From NCBI GenBank assembly GCA_903848965.1, contig CAINHV010000575.1:1-33102 (forward strand): a stretch of 33,102 nucleotides of DNA, written 5' to 3'. The DNA is from an uncultured Opitutia bacterium (GTDB lineage Bacteria; Verrucomicrobiota; Verrucomicrobiia; Opitutales; Opitutaceae). This document shows, piece after piece, positions 24,589 through 28,374 of this stretch (positions are counted from its first letter, which is position 1; every line of letters starts with the position of its first letter). The position numbers were made by a program, and so were the translations under genes. The notes under the pieces were generated by a model. That model worked only from the letters and a program-made list of their open reading frames with translations, had not been told where the DNA came from and did no database searches.

Positions 24589-26403
24589 ATGGATAAAAGG
24601 AATTTCACCATTGGCGTTGTGCTGCTGATCGCGGCCCTCGCAATCCTCGTTCTGGCTCCCCGTTCCGCGCCGCCCATGGTGGCGGACAACGTCCAGCCCT
24701 CCTCCACGACCGCCACCGCCCCGGGCGGCTCGCCGGCCGCCACGCCGGGCACGCCTTCGGGCAGTCCCGCGATGACCAGGTCGGCGGCACCGATCACCGA
24801 ACTGGCCGGCGTCAATGCCGAGGGGATCAACGCTCAGGTCACACTGCTCACGAACGACTTCATCGAGGTTCGCCTGACCAATCTCGGGGGTGCCGTTCGG
24901 GACGTGGCGCTCAAGCAGCATGCCGCCGTGCTCGGCCGGCCGGAGCCGTACGTTTTCAACCTCCGCCATGACGAGCCGCTGCTCGCACTCACCGAGTACC
25001 CTGGCCTGGGTCGCGATCGCGCCTACGAGCGGGTCAGCGCCTCCACCACGGAGGCGGTTTTCCGCACCGTGCTCGACGGCCGGATTGAAGTCACGCGTCG
25101 CTACCGGCTCACGACTGATCGCGAGCCCGGCGGCGATCCCTATCGCATCCGCCATGAGACCACGTTTCGGAACCTCACGCCCGCGACCGCCCCGCTGGGC
25201 CGCGCCGGCCTGAGCGTCGGCACGGCCGCGCTGCTCCACCCCAGCGATGCGCCTCACTATCTCAACATCGTCGCCTTTGACGGCGAGGATCCCCACTACA
25301 TCGAGCGCGGCGAGCTCGAGGGTGGCGGCATTGGCTCGCTCGTCGGAGCCGGCCGCGCCCCGTTGGCCATGCTGGAACGGCCGGGTAACACCGTCTGGGC
25401 CGGCGCGAAGAACCAGTTCTTCACCAGCATCTATACGCCGGACAAGCCGGCCTCTGGCTTGACCGTCCGCCGCGTCGCCCTGCCGTCCTTCGCCGACACG
25501 CAGGTGGCGAACGTCGGCCTCAGCGGCACCGCCCGCTTCGAACTCCCCGCGCTCGCCGCCAACGGCACCACCACGCTCACCGGGATGCTTTATGTCGGCC
25601 CCCAGGAGTACCGCCGGCTGTCGCGCTTCTCCCAGAAGGAGGACCAGGTACTCCCCTACACCCAGTTGTTCTTCAACCGGATCTTCCTCGCCGGCTATGT
25701 GGCTCCGCTGCTCAACACCCTCCTGAATGCCACGCACCGCTGGGTCGGCAACTGGGGCGTGGCGATCATCGTGATGACTCTGATCCTGAAGTTCGTCAGC
25801 CTGCCCTTCACCCTCGCCGCCTCCCGCTCCGCGAAACGCATGTCGAAACTGCAGCCCGCGATGCTGGTGATCCGCGAGAAGTACAAGGACAACCCCCAGA
25901 AGCAGCAGGCGGCGACGATGGAGCTGTTCAAGGAGCATAAGGTGAATCCCGTCGGCGGCTGCATCCCGATTCTCATCACCTTCCCGCTCTTCATCGGCTT
26001 CTTCGCCATGCTCCAGTGCACGACCGAGCTCCGGTTCCAGTCGTTCCTCTGGGCGACGGATCTGGCGGCGCCCGACACCATCGCCCACGTGTTTGGATTT
26101 CCGATCAACATCATGCCGCTGCTGATGGGCGCCACGATGTACTACCAGATGAAGCTCACGCCGGCGCCGTCGGTAGATAACATGCAGATGAAGATGATGA
26201 AGTTCATGCCCGTGATCTTCACCGTGTTCTGCTACAGCTTCTCCTGCGCCCTGTCGCTTTACTCGACGATCAACGGCCTCTTCACGATCATCCAGCAGAT
26301 CGTGATTAACCGCAGCAGCGACGACGTCCCCGCACCGGCCCTGACCGTGGCCGGCGGCAAGACCGTCAAGAACGTCACGCCGTCGAAGAAGAAGCTGAAG
26401 TGA
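24589..26403 (+). CDS. yidC: Membrane protein insertase YidC
   Basis: 604 residues. It begins MDKRNFTIGVVLLIAALAIL, the first TM of long, Gram-negative-type YidC. A Pro/Ala/Thr linker follows, then a large periplasmic beta-supersandwich domain (about 65-360). The five-helix insertase core starts near NWGVAIIVMTLILKFVSLPF, with the conserved Arg in TLAASRSAKRMSKLQP, then NPVGGCIPILITFPLFIGFF and YYQMKLTPAPS. It inserts and folds inner-membrane proteins alone or with SecYEG. It is the last gene of the rpmH-rnpA-yidD-yidC cluster. The tail ends in basic SKKKLK. Confidence 0.98.
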   Translation: MDKRNFTIGVVLLIAALAILVLAPRSAPPMVADNVQPSSTTATAPGGSPAATPGTPSGSPAMTRSAAPITELAGVNAEGINAQVTLLTNDFIEVRLTNLGGAVRDVALKQHAAVLGRPEPYVFNLRHDEPLLALTEYPGLGRDRAYERVSASTTEAVFRTVLDGRIEVTRRYRLTTDREPGGDPYRIRHETTFRNLTPATAPLGRAGLSVGTAALLHPSDAPHYLNIVAFDGEDPHYIERGELEGGGIGSLVGAGRAPLAMLERPGNTVWAGAKNQFFTSIYTPDKPASGLTVRRVALPSFADTQVANVGLSGTARFELPALAANGTTTLTGMLYVGPQEYRRLSRFSQKEDQVLPYTQLFFNRIFLAGYVAPLLNTLLNATHRWVGNWGVAIIVMTLILKFVSLPFTLAASRSAKRMSKLQPAMLVIREKYKDNPQKQQAATMELFKEHKVNPVGGCIPILITFPLFIGFFAMLQCTTELRFQSFLWATDLAAPDTIAHVFGFPINIMPLLMGATMYYQMKLTPAPSVDNMQMKMMKFMPVIFTVFCYSFSCALSLYSTINGLFTIIQQIVINRSSDDVPAPALTVAGGKTVKNVTPSKKKLK

Positions 26404-26482: not shown

Positions 26483-26670
26483 CTGGCGGGACACAATAAG
26501 TGCTCCAAGGTGAAACGGCTGAAGGCCGTCACCGACTCCCGCAAGGGCAAGGTCTTCTCCCGGCTTTCGCGAGATCTCACGCTCGCCGCGAAGCGCTCGA
26601 AGACATCGACGATGTTCAGGCGGTATTTTCCAACGAGGAATCGGACGTTGATTTGGCGGACCTCACTTAG
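26483..26670 (+). pseudogene. yebC: yebC (transcriptional regulator/translation factor) with internal deletion
   Basis: The N-terminal piece in one frame reads LAGHNKCSKVKRLKAVTDSR, then KGKVFSRLSRDLTLAAK (26483-26593), the conserved start of YebC/TACO1. The usual ATG is CTG and the conserved Trp is Cys. It runs directly into a second frame (26593-26670) reading ALEDIDDVQAVFSNEESDVD, then LADLT and TAG, the typical C-terminal end of the same family. About 190 middle codons are missing and the junction shifts frame. It therefore keeps both gene ends but cannot make a protein. An intact copy probably lies elsewhere. Confidence 0.85.
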
Positions 26671-26687
26671 CGGCCCGGCGGCAGTTG

Positions 26688-26707
26688 CACGGGGCTCCTG
26701 CCCCGTG
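26688..26707. repeat. Hairpin CACGGGG-CTCCTG-CCCCGTG
   Basis: Perfect 7-bp stem with a six-base loop, 17 bases after the yebC remnant. It belongs to the same family as the hairpins at 1585-1653 and 27059-27082. Confidence 0.7.
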
Positions 26708-26758
26708 AGGTCCATCGATCGAGCGGTCTAATTTGACGCCTAGCTCGCAAAACCCAGA

Positions 26759-26811
26759 GGGCGCGCCCGAGGCACGCCCTTAAGAAACGCGGGCCGGGGC
26801 GTGACGCGCCC
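26759..26811. repeat. GC-rich inverted repeat
   Basis: GGGCGCG...ACGCCC (26759-26779) pairs with GGGCGT...CGCGCCC (26797-26811) around a central TTAAGAAAC. Each arm has a short internal insertion, so the stem is interrupted. Confidence 0.55.
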
Positions 26812-26849
26812 ACGGTCGAACGGCTCACGTTCACCGCACCCTCGATCCG

Positions 26850-26874
26850 CCACCCGCTCACGCTCGCAGCCACG
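26850..26874. repeat. Second copy of the CGCTCGCAGCCACG repeat
   Basis: Matches 5910-5934 at 23 of 25 bases. It lies between the GC palindrome and the nested CAGGAAG palindrome in the yidC-metX gap. Confidence 0.6.
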
Positions 26875-26902
26875 AGAGGAAGGAAACGCCCACGGCTGGA
26901 GC

Positions 26903-26950
26903 ACAGGAGGATTTTGAACAGGAAGCCTTCCTGCGAATCCTGACATCCTG
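26903..26950. repeat. Nested palindrome around CAGGAAGCCTTCCTG
   Basis: CAGGAAG-C-CTTCCTG (26919-26933) is a near-perfect palindrome. It is framed by CAGGAGGATT (from 26904) and AATCCTGACATCCTG, a second, looser inverted pair. Confidence 0.5.
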
Positions 26951-27058
26951 CCCAGGTCTGAGCCGAACCCAGCCGGCCACTCTGCGCCCTCTCGCAACCT
27001 CTGCGACCTCTGCGTTCCCGCTCCGGGTTTCCTTGAGGCCATTTCACCCCCTTCCGAC

Positions 27059-27082
27059 CACGGGTCAGGAGGCCCGTGCCAC
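27059..27082. repeat. Hairpin CACGGG-TCAGGAGG-CCCGTG
   Basis: A CACGGG/CCCGTG stem followed by CCAC, the same outer sequence as the 1630-1653 hairpin. It lies 96 bases upstream of metX. Confidence 0.6.
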
Positions 27083-27177
27083 TCCTGGACAGGGTGATGC
27101 CTCCCAACGCACCCAGCGTCATAACCCGGCGGCTTCCTTGCGTCGGCGGGGGCTTGGGGTTTGATCGTACGTCCCCC

Positions 27178-28374
27178 ATGACCGACGACGTCGAAGTCCT
27201 CCCGTCCACGGAGTCTGCGCGCCGCCACCTTGCACCCGGTGACGTCGGTCTCGTCGCTCCGCGTGACTTCGTCTCGAGTCATCCGTTCACGTTCAAGAGC
27301 GGCCAGGTCATCCCCGGCTTCACGCTGCGCTACGAGACGTACGGCCAGCTCAACGCCACCCGCGACAACGCCATCGTGATTTGCCACGCCCTCAGCGGCG
27401 ATCACCACTGCGCCGGCTGGCACACCCCGGACGATCGCAAGCCGGGCTGGTGGAACAATCTCATCGGGCCGGGCAAGGCGGTCGACACCCGCCGCTACTT
27501 CGTCGTCTGCGCCAACGTCCTCGGCGGCTGCCAGGGCTCGACCGGCCCTTCCTCGATCAATCCCGAGACCGGCCGTCCCTACGGCATCCTCTTTCCTTTC
27601 GTCACCATTCGCGACATGGCCCGCGCCCAGAAGCTTCTGCTCGAGCATCTCGGGATCGCGAAGGTTCACGCGATCATCGGCGGCTCGATGGGCGGCATGC
27701 TCGCCCTGCTTTCCACGATCGAGTTTCCGGGCTTCATCCGCCGCGTGCTCGCGATGGCCACGACCGGCCGCGAGAGCGCCCAGGCGATCGCGTTCAACGA
27801 GGTCGGCCGCCAGGCGATCATGCAGGACCCGGCGTGGAACCGCGGCGACTACCCCAAGGAGGCCGGACCGCGCGTCGGCCTCGCGATCGCGCGCATGATG
27901 GCGCACATCACCTACGTCACCGACGCCAGCATGGATCGGAAGTTCGGGCGCCGAAAAAAGGATGGTGCCCACGCGGACGCCTACACGTTCGATGTCCAGT
28001 TCGAGGTCGAGGGCTACCTGCGCCACCAGGGCCAGAGCTTCATCAATCGCTTCGACGCCAACTCCTATCTCTATATCACCCGGGCACTCGATCAGTTCGA
28101 TCTCGCCCACGCGGACGGCTCGCTGGAGAAGGCCTTCGCCCCCGTCGACGCCGAGACCTTGATCGTCGGGTTCACGAGCGACTGGCTCTTCCCGCCGGAG
28201 CAGAACCGCTCCCTCGCACTCGCCCTGCTGCGCGCCGGCAAGCGGGCGAGCTACGCCGAACTCTCCACCGATCTCGGCCATGACTCGTTCCTCCTCGAAT
28301 CCGAGGAACTCTACGCCCTGGTGCGCGCCTTTCTCGAGCGCGACGAACCCTACGAGTTCGACTATGCGATCTGA
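27178..28374 (+). CDS. metX: Homoserine O-acyltransferase (MetX family)
   Basis: 398 residues from the ATG at 27178; the frame is open further upstream but through repeats. It is an alpha/beta-hydrolase with the MetX motifs: FTLRYETYGQLNATRDNAIV, CHALSGDHHCAGWH, the nucleophile Ser170 in IIGGSMGGM, Asp335 in FTSDWLFPPE and His368 in LGHDSFL. It acylates homoserine, the first committed step of methionine synthesis. Acetyl versus succinyl specificity is not settled by the family name. It is followed by metW, the usual partner, but with a 243-base palindromic repeat between them. Confidence 0.96.
   Translation: MTDDVEVLPSTESARRHLAPGDVGLVAPRDFVSSHPFTFKSGQVIPGFTLRYETYGQLNATRDNAIVICHALSGDHHCAGWHTPDDRKPGWWNNLIGPGKAVDTRRYFVVCANVLGGCQGSTGPSSINPETGRPYGILFPFVTIRDMARAQKLLLEHLGIAKVHAIIGGSMGGMLALLSTIEFPGFIRRVLAMATTGRESAQAIAFNEVGRQAIMQDPAWNRGDYPKEAGPRVGLAIARMMAHITYVTDASMDRKFGRRKKDGAHADAYTFDVQFEVEGYLRHQGQSFINRFDANSYLYITRALDQFDLAHADGSLEKAFAPVDAETLIVGFTSDWLFPPEQNRSLALALLRAGKRASYAELSTDLGHDSFLLESEELYALVRAFLERDEPYEFDYAI

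Follow-up and report, generated by a model that had tools for sequence, protein, structure and literature searches.

A probable pseudogene of canonical yebC between yidC and metX and repeated loss of the gene in Opitutaceae

Gene content and ancestral order of the locus

The window, by which we mean the whole stretch of 33,102 nucleotides that was analysed, contains two genes of interest on its forward strand: yidC at 24589..26403, a 604-aa ORF whose orthologs are 48-82% identical across the family, and the downstream gene metX at 27178..28374, a 398-aa homoserine O-acetyltransferase-like ORF whose product is 70-88% identical to that of metX in 80 named relatives. Between these neighbours, at positions 26483-26670 (188 bases, + strand), lie the two ends of a canonical yebC gene, joined out of frame. 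In bacteria, yebC is a near-universal gene for a ribosome helper protein. The role of YebC/TACO1 proteins as translation factors was recognised just recently, and the known task of the family is to ease peptide-bond formation at stalling, proline-rich sequences.

Nearly all genomes of the genus with an intact yebC have it directly behind yidC, and where the available sequence extends far enough, metX comes next in most of them. A MetX scan of named genomes gave 80 loci, mostly titled Opitutaceae, Opitutae/Opitutia, Opitutus or Verrucomicrobia. At 60 of them a complete or almost complete yebC lies upstream of metX, and at 58 of the 80 yidC was present as well and in order, which is the arrangement that a preliminary description of this DNA had expected of related Opitutaceae. 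At six loci yidC is followed directly by metX, and at the remaining 14 the block is absent from the available flank. Since the order yidC-yebC-metX is spread over the family, it is probably ancestral in Opitutaceae.

The spacer between the remnant and metX (26671-27177) is about 500 bases long, compared with about 210 in the genome G004. It is full of interspersed-repeat pieces, with 49 matches genome-wide; a repeat unit of some 28 bases accounts for many of these, and a stretch of 100 bases is 90% identical to one on contig C81. Just upstream of metX, at about 27114-27150, there is a short motif, approximately GCGTCATAAC(C), with ACTTGC following a few bases later. The same motif is also found upstream of metX at the loci L032, L033, L034 and L047, in genomes with and without yebC, and it may represent a conserved promoter or leader element. 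An Rfam search of the window, this motif included, gave zero matches.

Structure of the yebC remnant

The 5' piece of the remnant (26483..26592, + strand) corresponds to codons 1-37 of yebC, and the 3' piece (26593..26670, + strand) corresponds to the last 25 codons and the stop. The translation of 26483-26593 is LAGHNKCSKVKRLKAVTDSRKGKVFSRLSRDLTLAAK, and that of 26593-26667, in another frame, is ALEDIDDVQAVFSNEESDVDLADLT, followed by TAG at 26668-26670. Against the NCBIfam profile NF001030, the 5' piece aligns with positions 2-37 (E 7.8e-9), and it also matches the Pfam domain TACO1_YebC_N (E 7.5e-7); the matches of the 3' piece to the end of NF001030 (220-239, E 0.04) and to the end of PF01709 (146-159, E 0.11) are weak. 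With an HMM constructed from Opitutaceae orthologs, the 5' piece gave E 2.3e-17 and the 3' piece E 1e-5 (positions 222-245), and the best chance match of this HMM on 69 control spacers (16 kb) had an E-value of just 2.2. At the protein level, the two pieces match the N- and C-termini of YebC, and the preliminary description of two YebC ends lying in different frames and closed by a stop is borne out.

Among the genomes compared, the nearest relative as judged by YidC (82% identical) is G004, in which yebC is intact and has 248 codons. In a DNA alignment with this gene both pieces of the remnant are collinear, and nucleotides 111-669 (559 bp) are missing, which agrees with the single internal deletion of roughly 560 bases that had been proposed from the window. 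The deletion junction is located at 26592..26593 (+ strand), with an ambiguity of one base, and no obvious repeat was seen at the deletion ends in this alignment. Because 559 is not divisible by 3, the C-terminal piece has shifted to another frame. Two further changes noted earlier, the decay of the start codon from ATG to CTG and the replacement of a conserved Trp by Cys, hold against a set of 74 intact orthologs: all 74 have ATG or GTG as the codon of residue 1, where the remnant has CTG, and all 74 have Trp at residue 7, where the remnant has Cys.

Over the 36 N-terminal codons, the remnant differs from the gene of G004 by 15 synonymous and 2 nonsynonymous changes. This synonymous excess suggests that, after the split from G004, selection probably maintained yebC in the lineage of the window for the greater part of the time, and that the gene was inactivated late.

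In total, yebC has lost about three quarters of its length together with its start, and its frame is broken. Both pieces are like canonical YebC (YebC_I, represented by E. coli YebC and described by TIGR01033/NF001030 and by TACO1_YebC_N together with PF01709) in sequence; unlike the canonical gene, however, the remnant cannot encode the protein. The intact orthologs at the yidC-metX site pass the cut-off of NF001030 (295.6 versus 243 bits). The feature therefore has three of the properties by which a pseudogene is recognised, namely homologous pieces, disabling lesions and the position of the functional ortholog of its relatives, and as a pseudogene it most likely does nothing.

Recurrent loss at the same site

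The event in the window is not isolated, since canonical yebC has repeatedly been lost at the same place. It is absent from the site in eleven other sampled lineages, one complete genome included. In three members of the same genus (G001, G024 and G012) there is no yebC, and metX begins 165-247 bases past yidC. Besides the genome of the window (G000), 24 of 150 family genomes carry only a second, divergent type of YebC (the paralog described below), and these include the single-contig genomes G043, G108, G112 and G148. In seven of the 24, representing six genera, metX lies at most about 450 bases from yidC with no yebC in between, and a search of these intervals revealed no remnant. When loss is mapped onto a tree of metX from 73 loci, 11 changes are required (12 when the remnant of the window is counted), and the well-supported branches of the tree force at least 8 losses (9 with the remnant).

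No yebC remnant was found in nine other yidC-metX gap sequences, some of which represent the same genome twice, and among 19 paralog-only loci a remnant was found only in G133, which belongs to another genus. This second remnant occupies the same place (locus L074, reverse complement from base 202; G133:C92) and consists of ATGGCTGGCCAT, an extra T, a few N-terminal codons, a small fragment of the middle part and, at the C-terminus, HHDDVQQVFSNEKTA with the stop. Compared with the intact gene of its congener G168, it carries several deletions, unlike those of the window remnant, and a 1-base insertion, and as judged from these sequences it was formed independently. In Opitutaceae, canonical yebC has thus been inactivated independently at least 8-9 times at the same site, in most cases now seen as a clean removal.

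The surviving paralog

The preliminary description had predicted a functional copy elsewhere in the genome, and this was right in outline and wrong in detail: a second canonical yebC was not found in the MAG, which is 94.7% complete with proven gaps, and an intact but divergent YebC paralog is present. The latter is the sole PF01709 gene found in this genome (C413:521-1249, - strand, 243 aa). It is 93.8% identical to the paralog of G004 and, in global alignment, 37-39% identical to canonical YebC. The paralog occurs in nearly the whole genus, in which most members carry both it and canonical yebC, the latter mostly in one copy. In the other sampled families of the order, mostly one gene with a canonical score is present, and a small number of further families in the class have related paralogs. 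Outside Opitutaceae, the near-complete genomes G254 (a single contig) and G294 have only a divergent paralog and lack canonical YebC.

The paralog scores above both Pfam cut-offs (TACO1_YebC_N, 73.3 versus 36 bits; PF01709, 124.4 versus 27 bits) and, of the family motifs, retains Tyr-Glu in YEGY as well as the terminal DDVQ. In S. pyogenes YebC the RNA-contacting residue Y84 is essential, and Phe is tolerated in its place (PMC12234827). By our own assignment, the Tyr of the YEGY motif in the paralog would be the equivalent of Y84; in the alignment, Phe takes this position in two paralogs of the family.

A second YebC-family protein is also known as YebC2/YebC_II (B. subtilis YebC2, E. coli YeeN), and the paralog shares the MGR.W start with YebC2. 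Among NCBIfam models it matches that of the subfamily NF009044 best (193.3 bits, cut-off 196). However, it is just 32-37% identical to the YebC2 proteins that were tested, no nearer than to canonical YebC, and in trees it forms a deep clade of its own. A sister relationship to YebC2/YeeN had a p-AU of 0.577 with few references, so that the joining is not rejected. A classification of the paralog as YebC2 is neither supported nor excluded by this evidence.

Co-occurrence of the two types

In the 122 family genomes with a completeness of 90% or more, both types occur in 62, the canonical type alone in 38 and the paralog alone in 22, and there is none with neither; the classes were assigned from hit number and E-value, two hits being taken as both, so that the class "both" is approximate. 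Under independence, 6.9 genomes with neither type would be expected where 0 were observed (Fisher p 1e-4, uncorrected for relatedness). Three genomes do have neither type, and these are 67-72% complete. One exception is the locus L165 in G403, an Opitutaceae MAG of unestimated completeness: no yebC lies between yidC and metX, and a search of this genome for a PF01709 gene of either type found none. The paralog is kept in almost all lineages that lost the canonical gene.

Published work on other bacteria offers a possible reason. In vitro, stalling at polyproline is relieved by YebC and by YeeN alike (PMC12234827), and the two compete in a reconstituted system, for the A site by the account of that paper (PMC13284719). 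In a survey of more than 15,000 genomes, YebC was kept in only 34% of the taxa bearing YebC2 (PMC11990639). The Opitutaceae pattern has the same either-or tendency. That survey, however, concerned presence and absence, with YebC2 mainly in Bacillota and Gammaproteobacteria, whereas here, in Verrucomicrobiota, the losses can be read from the nucleotide sequence, and relics persist at the site. Known subtypes replace each other only in part: when Salmonella lacks EF-P, yebC is important and yeeN is not (PMC12234827). From this work we infer a ribosomal action of the paralog, and a redundancy that would explain why the losses were tolerated.

Alternative explanations

The genome of the window is a fragmented MAG of 577 contigs. 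An intact yebC might therefore really be present, 559 bp of it having been skipped by the assembler or in a chimeric contig. We regard such an artefact as very improbable, since a mis-join would produce neither the CTG start nor the change of Trp7 to Cys, the junction has no obvious repeat that could trigger a collapse, and the clean losses and the second remnant, at the same place in independently assembled genomes, indicate that loss of this kind is real. Incompleteness of the assembly matters in another way, because the remnant could be the leftover of a duplication or transposition, with function kept by an intact canonical yebC elsewhere in the genome. At least one neighbourhood does fall into a gap: when the efp neighbourhood of G004 was mapped onto the genome, lpxA, lpxC and efp were located together in a contig gap (C521/C351). 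An EF-P match is missing in this genome alone of the 27 of the genus, and a loss of EF-P, which would mean that two stall-relief factors are gone, was considered and rejected, as this gap explains the missing match. Owing to the gap, absence of a gene from the assembly is weak evidence, but the loss of yebC at the locus is independent of such evidence because the relic is in place. The relic also lies at the ancestral position and would thus be the original copy; with one canonical copy usual in the genus, only the paralog found here, and complete genomes of other lineages having lost the canonical gene outright, we consider a hidden second copy improbable, if slightly less so than an assembly artefact.

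It is also conceivable that the relic has kept a function, the N-terminal helices of YebC serving as a short protein or as a regulatory leader. In each frame an open stretch begins at a GTG codon, and the N-terminal differences from G004 are mostly synonymous (see above). An excess of synonymous changes is expected, however, if the deletion is recent relative to the G004 split; in addition, the relic lacks the normal start as well as the invariant Trp7, the frame continues into non-homologous sequence, and the short form is kept by no relative searched. This possibility is the least credible of those considered. We therefore hold with considerable confidence that the feature is a pseudogene of canonical yebC, one of the recurrent losses in the family, buffered by the paralog.

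Implications

The proposed course of events is as follows. A frame-breaking deletion of 559 bp in the yidC-yebC-metX block would have left the two ends of yebC. The canonical gene would have become dispensable because a divergent second YebC-family protein is encoded elsewhere, and this paralog most likely covers enough of the work on the ribosome, that is, easing peptide-bond formation at stalling, proline-rich sequences, for one of the two to suffice. The Opitutaceae data fit such a sufficiency of one of two. As a tentative extension, for which we would claim somewhat less than an even balance of belief, Opitutaceae and some related Verrucomicrobiota may possess a third, undescribed subfamily of YebC (MGRQWLHAKRA...), a ribosome-acting equivalent of YebC that enabled the repeated loss of yebC, one YebC-family protein of either kind being required.

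Relics of genes are ordinary; less so is a family that has repeatedly lost a near-universal translation factor, with two fossils in mid-decay, and we consider this case moderately interesting. In practice, a survey that relies on a single PF01709 hit would score paralog-only genomes as bearing YebC although the canonical gene is gone. As genomes with both types, genomes with either type and fresh relics can be compared side by side, Opitutaceae provide a natural experiment on how far YebC subtypes replace each other.
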